Source: Bacillota bacterium (lineage in GTDB: Bacteria > Bacillota > Bacilli > Alicyclobacillales > SLC66). Taken from it: 6,129 nucleotides of DNA. The notes beneath the pieces are model-generated. The model had not been told where the DNA came from and ran no database searches. It saw only the letters and a list, made by a program, of their open reading frames with translations. The position numbers were made by a program, and so were the translations under genes. The stretch lies in assembly GCA_021820825.1 (NCBI GenBank), contig JAKADD010000154.1, positions 1-6,129 of the forward strand, written 5' to 3'. Below, in pieces: positions 1 to 6,129 of the stretch (its first letter is position 1; every line of letters begins with the position of its first letter).

Positions 1-1458
1 TTTTAACGCAATTGCAGCGATGATGACGCTGATTGCTATCGCCGCGCTGGCGACGGTCAGTTCGGCGGCGCCGGCGGCGCTGCCGCGGTGGATCCAGTTA
101 GCCACAACGGGACTTGCCTGGATCAGCCCCGCCGCGATTGAGACCGGCAGCAACACCAGTGTGATGAGGGCAATGAGACGGTTGCGCTCAGCCTCCTGCC
201 GCAGTTCGCTTTCCCGCGCATCGAGTTCTCTGTCTCTCGCCACCTGCGCCAGGTATCCCTCGATGTCATGCACCTGGTCTTTCAGTTCATCGTACATCTG
301 GTTAATGTTGAATGCGCGTTGCCAGCGCCTGTAGAGTTGATCGCGTTCTTCGGAAAACGAAGCCTGGCTGAAGTAGCATCTTGCTGCAAAGTCATAGATC
401 TGTTCACGCAGTGTTCGCAAAAGAGTGGCCGGGTCGGAATTGCGCGTCGCGTCAGCCGCAGCCATTTCGTAGCAGAGGATGCTCATCCGCTGATGGAGCG
501 CCAGCAACATCATATAAAAATAATTCGTCCGAAAGGAACGCATCGCCCCTGAGTTGTGACCCTGAAAATGGCTTACGCCATTGTCGTAAGCGAGCGCGAA
601 ACCGCCTTCGAGCGACTGCGTATGGACGACATTGTGATAGGGCAGATAATTGTGCAGCGGATCATCGAGCAACTGTTGAGAGAAGCGGTTGCGATTATTG
701 GACGGGAGTGTCTTGCGGAGCACAATGCCGTGCTCGATCACAAATTCCTTGAATTGCATATTCGCCTGGCGGTGGGGCGTATCCTCCTCTGGCCGCAGAA
801 GAATCGCGCCATAGACAGGCAGGAAAGTGTCGACGAGCGCTTGCCAGCAGCTGACTGTCTGTTCTTGACAGAGAGGCTGCAGCAGACTTGCGATCAACTC
901 TTTTGTCGTTGTCGGTTCACCCAAAAACAGACCGGGCATGTCGGTCGAGTCGTCGGCGCAGGTCGCCGATTGTCCAAAGTTCCTCTGCCACATCGGCTTT
1001 CCCTGTGAAAGAGAGGCCAGATCCGCGTTTAAATCTTCAATCCAGGACATGGTTACAGATTCGCACGAGATGCAACTCGGCTGCACTTCAAACACCAGAA
1101 ATCCAACACCATTAAAAAACAGATGCAGGTCGATCGCCGCGATCTGAAATCCCGCTTCGTCCGCGTTCATGCGGTTTGTCTGCATATTGTCAAGTTGTTT
1201 GAGCAGAATCGGGTTGATCATGTAACGGCGGTGGTTCTCCGGTAATTTGACGTACTGCTTTACATACGGGAGCATATTGTCCAGTTCCTCGTCCTGGAAC
1301 TGGCATTCCAGCCACAGCGGACACAAGTCTGCAACTGCGTCAACGCGCGATCGAACCGCCGTCAGAGCGAGAGAGGCGTCGGAGAGACCCGTATGCTCTT
1401 GCAGGCGCAGTTGAAATGGGTACAAAAACTTGGTAAAAGTATCCTCAATCTCCCACAC
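1..1458 (-). CDS. CorA-like membrane protein, 3' end outside window
   Basis: An uninterrupted reading frame of 486 codons runs from a GTG at 1458 through the left edge. The start is chosen because GGAGGAGG (1473-1466) lies 7 bases upstream; the nearest in-frame upstream stop is TAA at 1527-1525. Residues 1 to about 385 are soluble and of mixed composition. Residues 387-426 are highly charged (DELKDQVHDIEGYL, then a run rich in R, E and D) and probably a long helix or coiled coil. Residues about 428-446 and 467-485 are hydrophobic and would be two membrane helices. A long cytosolic domain, a charged helix and two terminal membrane segments is the CorA divalent-cation channel layout. The first segment (TLVLLPVSIAAGLI) resembles CorA TM1 with its conserved proline and AG(I/L). 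The YGMN motif that should follow is replaced by IQAS. At 486 residues or more it is longer than usual CorA (about 320-350). The gene is certain, the CorA relationship probable, and ion transport unproven. Confidence 0.82.
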   Translation of the reverse strand, partial: MWEIEDTFTKFLYPFQLRLQEHTGLSDASLALTAVRSRVDAVADLCPLWLECQFQDEELDNMLPYVKQYVKLPENHRRYMINPILLKQLDNMQTNRMNADEAGFQIAAIDLHLFFNGVGFLVFEVQPSCISCESVTMSWIEDLNADLASLSQGKPMWQRNFGQSATCADDSTDMPGLFLGEPTTTKELIASLLQPLCQEQTVSCWQALVDTFLPVYGAILLRPEEDTPHRQANMQFKEFVIEHGIVLRKTLPSNNRNRFSQQLLDDPLHNYLPYHNVVHTQSLEGGFALAYDNGVSHFQGHNSGAMRSFRTNYFYMMLLALHQRMSILCYEMAAADATRNSDPATLLRTLREQIYDFAARCYFSQASFSEERDQLYRRWQRAFNINQMYDELKDQVHDIEGYLAQVARDRELDARESELRQEAERNRLIALITLVLLPVSIAAGLIQASPVVANWIHRGSAAGAAELTVASAAIAISVIIAAIALK

Positions 1459-1735: not shown

Positions 1736-2188
1736 TCACAACGGCTTTGTCATCCGACTTACCATCGCATCTCTGATGTAATCGCGCAACCCCAGCGAAC
1801 TGGATTCATGACCTTTCTCTGGCTCCAAAACATTGACGATTTCCTTAATGCCGAACAGGGGGCCGCTGAACACGAGAAAAAAGCGGTTGCTGGTGATATA
1901 GGGGCCCGTTACGCGAATGGCGTTCATAATAAGCAACACAGCCGCCAGCACATCGACAACATCCAGTATAACGCTGGCTGAACCAGACTGACCCGTTGAT
2001 CGGACGCCTCCCAGGATAGGACCCGTGGAGCCCAGATAAAACCCTTCGGGAACGAAAAATATCCCTGTCGTCGTAATCTGTCCCGTCAGCAGCAGGATGG
2101 CCGTGATGATATCGATCGAATACTGTGTTGAAGCAAGTAGATTGCGCGCTCGCATATCTGCGTTTCTCGGTTTTGTCAACTCCTTCAC
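1736..2188 (-). CDS. Membrane protein of unknown function with an internal duplication, 150 aa
   Basis: The frame opens with GTG at 2188 and ends with TGA at 1738-1736. The ribosome binding site is unclear: only GAGAG-like sequence lies at a suitable distance. A purine-rich GGTGAAGGAG overlaps the start, so a later start at the ATG for residue 12 cannot be excluded. Two hydrophobic segments lie at about residues 25-45 and 73-92. Each is followed by the same pattern: TGIFFVPEGFYLGSTGPILG (41-60) and TGPYITSNRFFLVFSGPLFG (94-113). These share T-G, an aromatic, F-(Y/F)-L, then (S/T)-G-P-(I/L)-x-G at identical spacing. Aspartates 26 and 76 mark the start of each hydrophobic part. The N-terminus is basic, and the C-terminus after residue 115 is charged and soluble. 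It heads a leftward gene group with the 42-residue protein and the CorA-like protein, divergent from the ger genes. I do not recognise the family. A role in the spore membrane is only a guess from the neighbourhood. Confidence 0.75.
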   Translation of the reverse strand: MKELTKPRNADMRARNLLASTQYSIDIITAILLLTGQITTTGIFFVPEGFYLGSTGPILGGVRSTGQSGSASVILDVVDVLAAVLLIMNAIRVTGPYITSNRFFLVFSGPLFGIKEIVNVLEPEKGHESSSLGLRDYIRDAMVSRMTKPL

Positions 2189-2237: not shown

Positions 2238-2255
2238 ACGGCGTATTGCCATTTT

Positions 2256-2318
2256 GATTTTGGGGAATATATTCACATGGACGTCGTTTCCGCCGATGGA
2301 AAAAAGGAAGTTAATAAA
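2256..2318 (+). pseudogene. Possible decayed 3' end of a gerAA gene
   Basis: In the frame of the gerAB remnant that follows, this stretch reads DFGEYIHMDVVSADGKKEVN. The intact gerAA downstream ends with SFGEPYMQ, then LDVLFKRSHNWGTKKGSQ. FGE, a (M/L)DV(V/L) step and KK occur in the same order, with about 20 intervening residues missing. The last bases, ggaagttaataaa before the ATG, align with ggcagccaataaag before the intact gerAB start. A shift across the run of six A would restore a stop matching the gerAA stop. The protein similarity alone is weak; the conserved junction beside the clear gerAB remnant is what makes it credible. Confidence 0.38.
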
Positions 2319-2375
2319 ATGCAGCAGCTTGATGCCTGATCCGCTGTCTGGACGTTTTTTGTCATGATCACTTTC
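2319..2375 (+). pseudogene. Truncated gerAB remnant (5' end only)
   Basis: Starting at the ATG at 2319 the sequence reads MQQLDA, stop, SAVWTFFVMITF. The intact gerAB at 5179 begins MQQLDARSAAWIVFVVIAS. At the nucleotide level 45 of the first 57 bases agree by direct comparison. Codon 7 is TGA (2337-2339) where the intact gene has CGA, a single transition giving a nonsense codon. Similarity ends near 2375, so at most the first 19 of some 360 codons survive, and the next gene, gerAC, starts 50 bases further on. This is the scar of a lost second B-subunit gene. A recent partial copy of the downstream gene is less likely, because many differences are at synonymous positions, as expected of a formerly functional paralogue. 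Confidence 0.8.
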
Positions 2376-2425
2376 TTGGCTCGATCCCGTCAGAACACAT
2401 GGCACTCCCGAACTGGTGACTCTTC

Positions 2426-3610
2426 ATGATCGCAAGGACCATCATGTTTGCTTCACTAATCCTATGCTGCTTCGCAATGTCTGGTTGCTGGGATTACAAG
2501 GAACTCGAACAGCAGGCTCTTCTCACCGGGTTGGGATACGATCGGAACAGCAGAGGCGATTTCATGGTGATCGCGTATCTCGATCAACAGAAGGGTTCCT
2601 CTGGAGACAAGACGTCTCAAGCCAAGAAAGCGCAGCCGCAAATTGTTGTGGCCAAAGCCACACGCGCCGAGGAGGCGTTTTTCCTATTATTTTTGCAGAC
2701 GCCACAGTGGAAGTATGTTAGCCATGTGTACTCGCAAGTCTTTAGCGAAGCATTCGCGAAAAGCGACTCATTTGCCGAAATCATGGACCGCATTACGAGG
2801 GTCGGCACTGTCCGGCGCAGAACCGGACTTTTCGTCACACCAGACCATGTCAAGGATGTCTATTCGCAGCGTCTCCCAGGGGCTGACAGCACCGCGCGCG
2901 GATTGCCCGATCTCGTTGTGCAGGGGAACCTGCTGCAGCTTGTTCCGTGCATCGATCTGAACGAGTTCGTCTATCAGTCCACCCTCCCCGGAGTGGACGC
3001 CATGCTGCCAGAAATACATGTCGTGGAATCGAGCGGTCATCCGGTTCTCAAAGCGGCGGGCGCAGCCGTTTTTCATCGCATGAAGATGGTCGGATACCTG
3101 GCGCCTGAAGATGTCCGTTCACTGCTCTGGCTCATGGGCAAAAGCGGGCACAGTTTTCTGCCGTTCCAGGGTTTTAGAAAAGAGGAAGTGGCGTACTTTC
3201 GTACCGAAGAGATCCATACCGCCATCAAGATATCGCTGCGAGGCGATCAGCCTGCCGCCGATGTCAAAGTCCAGTTGACAGGAACATTGGCCGCGTATCA
3301 GGGAGAACACCTCTTTCGCAAAACAGATATCGAACAACTCGAATCCATGGTCAGTCGAATCTTGCGCAAGAAGTTGATCCACGTTCTCAGGAAAACGCAA
3401 GCAATGAAAGTGGATCTGGTGGGATTTGGCGTACAGGTTCGGGCGCAGGTGGGATCTGCTGTCTGGCGAAAGCGGTATGCACATTGGAGTGAGGAGGGGT
3501 ATCCGCGGATGACGGTCCATGTTCAGGTCAAGACACTGATCAGCAGCGCAGAAGCGACAAACGACCCCATCAGCGTGCAACAAGCTGAAAGCGGATCGCC
3601 GCAATCGTGA
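2426..3610 (+). CDS. gerAC: Spore germination lipoprotein, Ger(x)C family (receptor C subunit)
   Basis: 394 residues, close to the usual family length. The ATG at 2426 has GGTGA (2415-2419) 6 bases upstream. A short signal peptide (MIARTIMFASLILCC) ends in the lipobox MSGC, so Cys21 is the predicted lipidated N-terminus of the mature protein on the outer face of the inner spore membrane. Immediately after it comes WDYKELEQQALLTGLGYD, the hallmark start of mature GerAC proteins. The C-terminal domain carries the family pattern KVDLVGFG (328-335) and a W-x-EE-x-YP segment beginning at Trp354, followed by the alternating strand TVHVQVKTLI. GerAC proteins act with the A and B subunits in nutrient germinant receptors. 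Here the gene precedes gerAA by about 100 bases instead of following gerAB as in the Bacillus subtilis gerA operon. The family assignment is very secure; the germinant is unknown, and gerAC is used as a family label only. Confidence 0.95.
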   Translation: MIARTIMFASLILCCFAMSGCWDYKELEQQALLTGLGYDRNSRGDFMVIAYLDQQKGSSGDKTSQAKKAQPQIVVAKATRAEEAFFLLFLQTPQWKYVSHVYSQVFSEAFAKSDSFAEIMDRITRVGTVRRRTGLFVTPDHVKDVYSQRLPGADSTARGLPDLVVQGNLLQLVPCIDLNEFVYQSTLPGVDAMLPEIHVVESSGHPVLKAAGAAVFHRMKMVGYLAPEDVRSLLWLMGKSGHSFLPFQGFRKEEVAYFRTEEIHTAIKISLRGDQPAADVKVQLTGTLAAYQGEHLFRKTDIEQLESMVSRILRKKLIHVLRKTQAMKVDLVGFGVQVRAQVGSAVWRKRYAHWSEEGYPRMTVHVQVKTLISSAEATNDPISVQQAESGSPQS

Positions 3611-3644: not shown

Positions 3645-3675
3645 GCATCATTCCTGATGGTCACTGCATGATTCC
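3645..3675 (+). repeat. Short direct repeat in the gerAC-gerAA gap
   Basis: GCATCATTCC (3645-3654) and GCATGATTCC (3666-3675) match at 9 of 10 bases and start 21 bases apart, about two helical turns. The first copy overlaps a 5-bp inverted repeat, CATCA-TTCC-TGATG. The 102-base gap (3611-3712) holds no other gene. No terminator with a T-run is visible, so gerAC and gerAA may be read as one transcript. The repeat could be a protein-binding site or chance. Confidence 0.3.
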
Positions 3676-3700
3676 AGATCTACTATGAAATACTACCACC

Positions 3701-3706
3701 GAGGTG
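3701..3706 (+). promoter_or_regulatory. Ribosome binding site that favours a TTG start for gerAA
   Basis: GAGGTG lies 6 bases before the TTG at 3713. The in-frame GTG at 3704 forms part of this same element and has no good site of its own upstream. The TTG is therefore the better start. Confidence 0.55.
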
Positions 3707-3712
3707 TTTCTC

Positions 3713-5176
3713 TTGACTCAGTGGACGAACCGACGGTTGAGCATGGATTTGGACAAAAATGTGGAAGACATTCTCGGCCAATTTGCAAGTTGCGCCGATG
3801 TTGTTTTGCGCCGTGTGACTATTACAAAGGCGCGGCAAAAGGCAGCCATCATTTTTATTCCGGAAATTACAGACACCACACGCATCGAACAGGCCTGCGT
3901 CCGACCGCTCCTGGCCCTTGCGGAGCGACGTTCGGCGCTGGAGCACGAAGACTTACAGAATGAACTTACAATACTCGGTATGCAACAACATCATATAATC
4001 GACGATGTCATCGCAGCAATTGCCGCGGGAGACGCTGTGTTGTTGCTCGATGGAACGCCGCAGGCCACTGTCCTCACCACCGCAAAATGGGAGCATCGCG
4101 CTGTTGAAAAATCCGACAATGAGGTCTCTTTGCGCGGGTCTCTGCAGGCGTTTAACGAGGATACGCGCACCAACATAGGTCTGGTGCGCCAAATTTTGCG
4201 CGGTCATGAACTGAAGATCGAAAAATTGACCTGTGGTCGAATGACCAAAACACCGGTCCACATCCTGTATCTGGACCCGATCGCCAATCCCGACCAACTG
4301 CAGACCGTCAAACAGCGTTTACAACAGATCAAACTCGACAGCGTGCTGGACGCCGGGTACATCGAACAACTCATCCGGGATCACCCACGATCGCCGTTCC
4401 CGACCATGGGACAGACCGAGCGGCCAGACCGTGTGGCCGCGCAGTTGGTGGATGGACGCATCGCCATCGCCGTCGACCATTCACCCACAATGTTGACATT
4501 GCCCGCGCTGTTCTCGGAATTCTTTCAGGTCAGCGAAGACTATTATGCAGATTTTTGGATTCAATCCTTTCACCGTATCCTGCGCTATACGGCATTTTGG
4601 GTGTCGCTTTCCCTGCTGAGCATATACCTGATCTTTCTGACCTATAATCCAGAGTTGCTGCCGACGCCGCTGTTGCTCAAATTGTCCGCGGCGCGCATGG
4701 GAATACCGTCGCCCACGATTGTAGAGCTTTCCTTTATGGGGCTCATGTTCGAAGTGTTGCATGAAGCAGGCGTGCGCCTGCCCCGCCCGATCGGACCCGC
4801 CATCAGCATCGTCGGCGGCCTGGTCGTGGGAGAGGCGGCCGTGACCGCAGGCATCGTGGGCGCAGCGACAGTGATCATCATTGCGATGTCGGGGATACTC
4901 TCCTTCATCATTCCTAGTCACTCCCTCACGGCGACCTTGCGGTTGCTGCGATTCCCGCTGCTGCTCATCACGGCCATGTTCGGTATCGTCGGTTTCGCGG
5001 CGGCGCTGTTGTTGCTGCTGCTGCACATGTTCTCTCTGACATCCTTTGGCGAGCCGTATATGCAAACCGCCGCGCCTCTTCGCAAACGGCTGCTCGAAGA
5101 CAACATTGTTCGCGCACCGCTGGATGTTCTGTTTAAGCGTTCGCACAATTGGGGAACAAAGAAAGGCAGCCAATAA
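3713..5176 (+). CDS. gerAA: Spore germination protein, GerA family (receptor A subunit)
   Basis: 487 residues from the TTG at 3713; a GTG at 3704 would add three residues. The length is normal for the family. The N-terminal half (about 1-280) is the soluble domain, with recognisable landmarks: AGDAVLLLDG, the TNIGLVRQIL helix, VHILYLDPIANPDQL and the TERPDRVAAQL segment near residue 235. The C-terminal half has membrane segments near 292-312 (FWVSLSLLSIYLIFLTY), 364-401 (two adjacent helices starting AISIVGGLVVGEAAVTAG) and 416-440, plus the strongly conserved EVLHEAGVRLPRPIGPA stretch. The soluble tail after FGEPY is short. The A subunit forms the oligomeric membrane core of nutrient germinant receptors in the inner spore membrane. 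Some usually conserved positions differ: the RGP-x-EGF-type motif reads RGSLQAF, and the later DG-x-P reads DHSP. The gene ends 2 bases before gerAB, which implies translational coupling. Family assignment is secure; the ligand is unknown. Confidence 0.95.
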   Translation: MTQWTNRRLSMDLDKNVEDILGQFASCADVVLRRVTITKARQKAAIIFIPEITDTTRIEQACVRPLLALAERRSALEHEDLQNELTILGMQQHHIIDDVIAAIAAGDAVLLLDGTPQATVLTTAKWEHRAVEKSDNEVSLRGSLQAFNEDTRTNIGLVRQILRGHELKIEKLTCGRMTKTPVHILYLDPIANPDQLQTVKQRLQQIKLDSVLDAGYIEQLIRDHPRSPFPTMGQTERPDRVAAQLVDGRIAIAVDHSPTMLTLPALFSEFFQVSEDYYADFWIQSFHRILRYTAFWVSLSLLSIYLIFLTYNPELLPTPLLLKLSAARMGIPSPTIVELSFMGLMFEVLHEAGVRLPRPIGPAISIVGGLVVGEAAVTAGIVGAATVIIIAMSGILSFIIPSHSLTATLRLLRFPLLLITAMFGIVGFAAALLLLLLHMFSLTSFGEPYMQTAAPLRKRLLEDNIVRAPLDVLFKRSHNWGTKKGSQ

Positions 5177-5178
5177 AG

Positions 5179-6129
5179 ATGCAACAGCTTGACGCCCGAT
5201 CCGCTGCCTGGATAGTCTTCGTCGTGATCGCTTCCACCGCCACGCTGTACTTGCCTGCGATCAGTATCCAGCAAGCGCAAAATGGCGCCTGGCTGTCCCC
5301 GGTTCTGGCCGTTCCGTTCGGTTTTCTGACCTATGGGCTGATCTGGGCGCTTCGTCGCCGTCACCCAGGTCAATCGTTTACCGCCATCGCTTTAGCTGTT
5401 TTCGGTCCCGTCATCGGACGAGTGATTGTCATTCTCATGGTCGTCTTTCTTTGGCAGGCGGGAGTGATCATCCTTCGTCAATTGCTGGGCTTTATCAAAA
5501 CATTCATCCTGCTTGAAACTCCAATCCTCGTCGTCGATTTCATTCTGTCATTGGCCATCTGGCTTGCCCTGCGCTACCGGGTTACGGTGCTCGGCAAAGT
5601 CAACCAGATGGTGGGATTCACCCTTGCGGCGTTGCTCGCCATATTGCTGATCAGCGCGATGCCGGACATCCACATGTCCGCATTTACACCGTGGCTTGAA
5701 TCCGGATGGAAAGGATTGATACGCGGTGCGATCGTGCCCGCAACGTGGTATTCGCAAATCGTTTTGTTGATTTTTGTCTGGCATGAAATGAAACCGGATG
5801 AGACAGCCTTGCTGGATCGAAGAATCATCTGGATGCTGCTGTCGACCACCCTGTTTCTTATGATCGTGAACATTGCTGTGTTGGGGGTGCTGGGGGTGCA
5901 GGAAAGCGCAAGATCCGGTTTTCCCACGCTTGAGATCGCACGCTACGTTCAACTGGGTGCGGGAGTTCAATTGCAAAGACTGGATATCCTATTTATCATA
6001 CCGTGGATTTTGGCGGCCATTTTTAAGATTATCTTTTTCTATTACGGAGCGTGCGCCATCATTCGCGATCTCTTGCAGCACACGACATTCGACGCATTCA
6101 GCAGCGGGGTCGTCTTTTCTGGTATGGGG
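5179..6129 (+). CDS. gerAB: Spore germination permease-like protein, GerAB family (receptor B subunit), 3' end outside window
   Basis: The ATG at 5179 follows the gerAA stop by 2 bases. Its own ribosome binding site is weak (GAAAGG about 12 bases upstream), so translation is probably coupled to gerAA. The frame stays open for 317 codons to the right edge; the family is usually near 360 residues, so roughly the last 45 are missing. The protein is hydrophobic throughout, with at least eight membrane segments visible, the first at about residues 10-30. FPTLEIARYVQLG (248-260), followed by LQRLDILFIIPWILAAIFKI, matches the conserved late region of GerAB proteins, which belong to the amino acid-polyamine-organocation transporter superfamily. 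GerAB subunits bind the nutrient germinant (known for B. subtilis GerAB with L-alanine). The substrate here cannot be read from the sequence. The first 19 codons are duplicated as a decayed copy at 2319. Confidence 0.95.
   Translation, partial: MQQLDARSAAWIVFVVIASTATLYLPAISIQQAQNGAWLSPVLAVPFGFLTYGLIWALRRRHPGQSFTAIALAVFGPVIGRVIVILMVVFLWQAGVIILRQLLGFIKTFILLETPILVVDFILSLAIWLALRYRVTVLGKVNQMVGFTLAALLAILLISAMPDIHMSAFTPWLESGWKGLIRGAIVPATWYSQIVLLIFVWHEMKPDETALLDRRIIWMLLSTTLFLMIVNIAVLGVLGVQESARSGFPTLEIARYVQLGAGVQLQRLDILFIIPWILAAIFKIIFFYYGACAIIRDLLQHTTFDAFSSGVVFSGMG

Follow-up and report, generated by a model that had tools for sequence, protein, structure and literature searches.

Two published accounts come closest to the locus described here. 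A passage in one describes a pseudogene for the C-terminal region of GerA that overlaps the putative start of an extra gerXB gene (PMC4161481). A passage in the other describes ger clusters with an additional gerXB, and in one case an additional gerXA, and asks why the same is apparently not true of gerXA and gerXC (PMC5083711). We examined a 6,129-base contig from a Bacillota bacterium (JAKADD010000154.1; the whole stretch is called the window) in which an intact gene for an extra C subunit, gerAC1 (AC1), is preceded by a scar of gerAA (AA) and gerAB (AB) sequence and followed by an AA-AB pair. As in the passage in PMC4161481, the degenerate end of a gerA-type gene precedes an extra intact subunit gene in a rearranged ger locus, whereas the extra subunit there is B and here is C, and the present locus has remnants of both AA and AB, a relative with its own scar and an unduplicated relative. 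As in the passage in PMC5083711, the number of subunit genes is not three, but the lineage of the window has two gerAC genes. Very probably, judging from the sequence comparisons below, an AA-AB-AC operon underwent tandem duplication, after which AA and the greater part of AB disappeared from the first copy. In the literature searched, by titles and the openings of abstracts, we met no duplicated gerAC with an AA-AB remnant, which is not proof of absence.

From the left, the window contains a 486-amino-acid (aa) frame and a divergent 150-aa gene that we call the up gene (1736-2188), both on the reverse strand, and then gerAC1, gerAA and gerAB. Relatives were found by a scan of genome contigs with gerAC1 that retained three loci out of 21 pattern matches. 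These are L001, from the metagenome-assembled genome (MAG) WH4.bin34, and L002 and L003, from the MAG DX2.bin20 (G002). The order in L001 is up gene, scar, AC1, AA, AB and a second gerAC (AC2), and L002 contains the end of AC1, then AA, AB and the start of AC2. G002 gave no match to the up gene, to the DNA of the scar or, ahead of its AA, to the N-terminal portion of an AC1. Genome G009 (locus L031) has a single AA-AB-AC operon next to the same up gene (AC identity 63%). The significance of alignments was judged by comparing scores with those of shuffled sequences, with 500 dinucleotide shuffles in the first comparison of the scar with the window's own gerAA-gerAB junction and the numbers given with the counts in the other tests.

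Of the 57 bases at 2319-2375, 45 are the same as in 5179-5235, the beginning of the intact gerAB; the two start codons (ATG) coincide, and codon 7 (2337-2339) reads TGA where the intact gene has CGA, as the initial annotation had stated. The best local alignment pairs 2300-2373 with 5159-5233 and has a score of 82, compared to a maximum of 34 in the shuffles. The similarity outside the first 20 bases, which the same annotation had proposed as a check, held up, with 2339-2430 scoring 38 against a maximum of 29 (0/500). This match to the intact gerAA-gerAB junction is real and far above chance. The part before the ATG is weak when taken alone, its score of 22 being reached by 33/500 shuffles of 2190-2318 and 7/500 of 2256-2318. 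The short match of 2300-2318 to the gerAA tail was reached by 1/1000 shuffles with gerAA from the window, 1/1000 with L002, 4/1000 with L001 and 408/1000 with G009.

It had also been proposed that the gerAB remnant breaks off after 19 codons, and here we reached a different result. Only the match to the 5' end of gerAB stops at that point, and the bases that follow match the 3' end. Alone, 2376-2425 scored 38 against the gerAB 3' end of L001 (maximum 31) and 34 against that of L002 (maximum 26), with 0/1000 shuffles reaching either score. When the junction was included, the scores were 48 for 2354-2420 with L001 (maximum 31) and 54 for 2354-2425 with L002 (maximum 28). The 3' part of the scar also matches the gerAB 3' end of G009 (38, maximum 32). 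The ~130 bases at 2300-2429 consist of the last ~6 codons of gerAA followed by the opening ~19 codons of gerAB, which are joined in frame to its final ~21. Compared to the intact gerAB of L001 (1122 nucleotides), the collapsed frame of 111 nucleotides lacks 1011 bases, a multiple of three. L001 has 36 open codons in this frame, whereas the window has a premature stop at codon 7; in both, the terminal stop codon of the frame overlaps the start of AC1 as ATGA. Deletion between short direct repeats is familiar from bacterial gene remnants. Likewise, the junction of the scar lies within a 12-base near-repeat, GTGATCGCTTCC and GTGATCACTTCC, of which 11/12 bases are alike within the gerAB of L002 and also between the gerAB 5' end of the window and the gerAB 3' end of L002; the difference is that the repeat is visible in these comparisons and not in L001 or G009.

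Table. Coordinates of features in the window.
Feature	Position	Strand	Remarks
Up gene	1736..2188	-	150 aa; ancestral flanking gene on the left of the gerA operon
Putative ancestral intergenic DNA, up gene to lost gerAA	2189..2299	.	Aligns to G009 spacer; not gerAA tail
Candidate sigma-70-type promoter	2246..2273	+	TTGCCA-N16-TATATT; 10/12 matches; match is not evidence of function
gerAA remnant, first copy	2300..2318	+	Last ~6 codons and stop; includes GGAAG, ribosome-binding-like, before gerAB
gerAB remnant codons 1-19, first copy	2319..2375	+	45/57 identical to 5179-5235; codon 7 is TGA
Collapsed gerAB frame	2319..2429	+	111 nucleotides; equal length in L001 (7894-8004)
Junction of deletion inside gerAB	2364..2375	+	Short direct repeat: GTGATCGCTTCC near 5' end, GTGATCACTTCC near 3' end of intact gerAB
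gerAB remnant, last ~21 codons and stop, first copy	2364..2429	+	Stop TGA 2427-2429 overlaps AC1 ATG (ATGA)
GGTGA before AC1	2415..2419	+	As in intact AB-AC junctions of L001, L002 and G009; missing from L001 scar
gerAC1	2426..3610	+	Intact; encodes a GerAC-type lipoprotein of 394 aa with MSG before Cys21; putative copy-1 survivor
Upstream sequence of second-copy gerAA	3657..3703	+	TGCATGA-N17-AATACTA (3665-3695), motif 14/14; homologous to pre-gerAA region of G009
Second-copy gerAA	3704..5176	+	Intact, 490 aa; PF03323 1e-157
Second-copy gerAB	5179..6129	+	Cut by contig end, 317 aa shown; PF03845 1.5e-33; 89.6% to AB of L001

The single operon in G009 together with the layout of L001, which has both a scar and AC2, points to a tandem duplication of AA-AB-AC followed by losses in copy 1. 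An ancestral gerAA-gerAB-gerAC operon pointing away from the up gene would have been duplicated as a unit of promoter, AA, AB and AC. Copy 1 would then have lost gerAA, of which the window keeps only the last ~6 codons. In a further deletion, whose ends probably lay in two short, nearly identical stretches of gerAB, that gene would have lost 1011 bases. This would leave, at 2300-2429, the end of gerAA, the start and end of gerAB in frame and the old ATGA overlap into an intact AC1. The former AA-AB-AC operon proposed in the initial annotation has both ends of gerAB, the scar at the same position in L001 and the single operon in G009 in its favor, and its details need amending. The gerAB gene lost its middle and not everything after codon 19, and copy 1 underwent at least two deletions, one in AA and one inside AB. 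AC1 does lie beside a second AA-AB pair in the window, but the duplicated unit would be AA-AB-AC because L001 has AC2 after AB. Near the root of the AC tree, where the duplication would have to be placed before or after the divergence of G009, support was low (0.187 and 0.398). A conserved frame of ~72 aa, which may presumably encode a small fourth subunit of D type, directly follows AC in G009 (L031, reverse strand) and AC2 in L001 (13087 onwards) and L003 (396 onwards). In the search for the right end of the duplication, the DNA after AC1 showed no match to this frame.

On the left side, weaker similarity to the gerAA tail had been extended to about 2256. This was borne out, as a short match, for about 2300-2318 and not for 2256-2299. 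Four gerAA tails were aligned with 2256-2299 and 124-809 of 1000 shuffles reached the scores. The same bases alone matched the spacer between the up gene and gerAA of G009 (38, maximum 32, 0/1000), and 2202-2300 matched it with a score of 132 (maximum 37). Thus, the gerAA remnant begins only near 2300. The L001 scar retains more of gerAA (7834-7891; 41, maximum 28). Before this tail, L001 has a stretch resembling the operon promoter, with 7789-7828 scoring 36 against 321-360 of L002 (maximum 32). This stretch also matched the AC1-AA spacer of the window (33, maximum 31), and 7786-7833 matched the G009 spacer (32, maximum 26). No such stretch was found in the window scar when compared with three regions upstream of AA, the best scores being reached by 684-792 of 1000 shuffles. 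The AC1-AA spacer of the window (3657-3703) did match the region before gerAA in G009 (70, maximum 32).

We described the operon-type promoter as TG-C/A-AT-N-A, 16-18 bases and C/A-ATACTA, a pattern that we take to resemble a sigma-G promoter. Before AA it is matched at 14/14 positions in the window, L002 and G009 and at 13/14 in L001, and the L001 scar also has 14/14, with each of these reached by 0/300 shuffles. It is absent from the window scar, where the best match of 9/14 was equalled by 299/300 shuffles. This pattern was written after viewing these sequences, so the alignment tests carry the weight. The only sigma-70-like site in 2150-2480 is TTGCCA-N16-TATATT, where 0.3 such sites are expected in shuffled sequence. 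If AC1 is expressed in the window at all, its promoter would have to be a different one from that of the original operon, which would now be lost.

Several observations weigh against duplication followed by decay. Neither a search of 61 genomes with AC1 nor one with window bases 2100-2430, which covered 59 genomes of the order, found an intact double operon, including the AA-AB-AC-AA-AB arrangement that the initial annotation had looked to for support. In the first search 59 of the 61 genomes had some AC match, and among the matches listed only G001, G002 and G009 exceeded 60% identity. In the second, three of the 59 genomes matched (G001, G009 and G015), with matches ending at about 2242, 2290 and 2265, respectively, short of the gerAB part of the scar. 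The 12-base repeat was not found in the gerAB of L001 or G009. The 3' part of the L001 scar is only weakly similar to intact gerAB 3' ends, its score being reached by 141/1000 shuffles for L001 and 7/1000 for L002, and its link to gerAB runs by way of the scar in the window. Against the DNA upstream of L001's own gerAA, the stretch of the L001 scar that resembles a promoter scored 24, which 29/1000 shuffles reached, and it aligned elsewhere. The left ends of the scars in the window and L001 are unlike, suggesting that the loss of gerAA was either trimmed further or partly independent. Finally, the collapsed frame is exactly 111 nucleotides in both lineages, with no insertion or deletion in 107 bases despite 33/107 differences. 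This absence is the one feature of the scar that simple decay does not explain.

As duplication followed by loss would have it, the divergence of the scar between the window and L001 shows no coding constraint (11/11/11 differences by codon position), and the gene that survived in copy 1 is intact. The AC1 protein contains the N- and C-terminal GerAC domains above cut-off (PF05504, 2.6e-30; PF25198, 5.2e-23; TIGR02887) and resembles 3n54_B, a chain of solved structure with the title 'Spore germination protein B3' (E 1.1e-08). The ratio of nonsynonymous to synonymous substitution rates (dN/dS) between the window and L001 was 0.226. AC1 has been retained and probably serves as a second C subunit that has diverged. 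A tree of AC residues 20-160 placed P0003, P0005 and P0007 in one clade with the AC1 sequences of the window and of L001 (local support 0.995) and left the AC2 sequences outside it. This placement suggests that these three proteins occupy the AC1 position, and the C-terminal end of P0003 suggests that it is AC1 of the DX2 lineage. With residues 227-394 the proteins regrouped, P0003 joining P0006 (0.946), which is AC2 of DX2 in its N-terminal part, and AC1 of the window joining P0002 (1.000). P0002 is identical to P0004 over residues 1-180 and at 45/46 positions over 181-226, and from residue 227 it is identical to AC1 of the window at 165/168 positions. The mosaic make-up of these GerAC proteins points to gene conversion that involved the C-terminal halves of AC1 and AC2; for P0002, a chimeric short contig is an alternative.

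Adaptive remodelling, as opposed to decay, is a tentative possibility. Copy 1 may have been pared down until only a second C subunit was left, standing alone and equipped with a start region of its own, the N-terminal domain of AC1 having diverged from that of AC2 while the C-terminal halves were made alike again by gene conversion, and the collapsed gerAB frame of L001 may be a coupling leader that keeps the old sporulation promoter.

It is unlikely that the scar is a decayed pair kept as a working leader for translational coupling to AC1, with selection on the frame and its length and not on the peptide. Ribosomes would load at the GGAAG/ATG of the collapsed gerAB frame, read through it and enter AC1 by way of the ATGA. 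The shared length of 111 nucleotides, the 36 open codons in L001 and the retained ATGA overlap are as this proposal would have them, but codon 7 of the window's frame is a stop, and survival of an unselected open frame was not uncommon in a simulation (0.64 at 17% change). In L001 the AC1 start lacks GGTGA and has a pairing energy with the anti-Shine-Dalgarno sequence of +0.1 kcal/mol, compared to -5.7 for the start of the collapsed frame. These energies are unremarkable, however, since -5.7 was reached by 9% of random sites, and the 15 starts that we compared ranged from 4% (the best, AC of G009) to 83%. Between the scars of the window and L001, 33/107 bases differ (74/107 identical), spread evenly over codon positions as 11/11/11, compared to 22/14/69 in gerAB and 52/42/111 in AC1 (Fisher, p 0.0013 versus gerAB and p 0.038 versus AC1), with only these two scar sequences to compare. 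The dN/dS of the collapsed frame was 0.60 on 35 codons, a small sample. In this modest test of one sequence pair, the scar peptide shows no sign of selection and the scar appears to evolve without coding constraint.

A partial duplication, in which only gerAC and fragments were copied ahead of the operon and a full gerAA or gerAB was never present there, is very unlikely. It would fit the finding of fragments only and the failure of both genome searches to find an intact double operon. The pieces, however, come from separate places (the AA end, the AB start and the AB end, with the AA promoter region also in L001), lie in operon order and have the same left neighbour as in G009. A single partial copy would need internal deletions to give these pieces, which counts against it.

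That the scar is a conserved leader peptide or regulatory RNA with no relation to a lost gene pair is hardly credible. It does sit in an intact gene's 5' region, and L001 shares part of it, but both gerAB ends and the gerAA end are matched and coding constraint is absent. A conserved leader peptide was rejected because of the stop at codon 7 in the window, the even differences over codon positions and 21 nonsynonymous changes in 35 codons compared to L001, the sole relative compared. An RNA element was rejected because the window has no Rfam match and 2240-2440 folds more weakly than shuffled sequence (z = +1.82). An assembly artefact of a metagenomic contig of only 6129 bases can be dismissed almost entirely, as a separate MAG contig (L001) has the same gene order and a collapsed frame of equal length at 74/107 identical bases.

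The orthologues of the up gene in L001 and L031 directly adjoin the gerA cluster and are 84% and 83% identical to it, respectively. A search of Pfam and NCBIfam gave no family match for the up gene, and homologues are present in 9/18 genomes of the family. The 486-aa frame (1-1458, reverse strand) is cut by the contig edge, has no match in Pfam or NCBIfam and is unmatched in L001, L002, L003 and L031. The surroundings of the gerA cluster may therefore differ among these genomes. Locus L040 (G015:C73:12000-24000) has the same up gene (87%) and a spacer conserved to about window position 2265. Directly beyond this spacer there is no close gerA operon, but ~1.8 kb further on the side where the operon of G009 lies a different one begins, in the order AA, AC, AB and with AA 38% identical. 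From this layout, the site flanking the up gene may be a hot spot for ger operons.

Duplication with subsequent loss in copy 1 is an event of a known kind, ordinary gene decay, that is unusually well resolved here. It offers a stepwise case of how the number of subunits in a germinant receptor operon may change, from a single operon through tandem duplication and loss of A and B to an extra C that is kept. The pairing of one A-B pair with two C subunits lends itself to a direct test. If copy 1 was adaptively remodelled, AC1 and AC2 could each combine with the same AA-AB pair.
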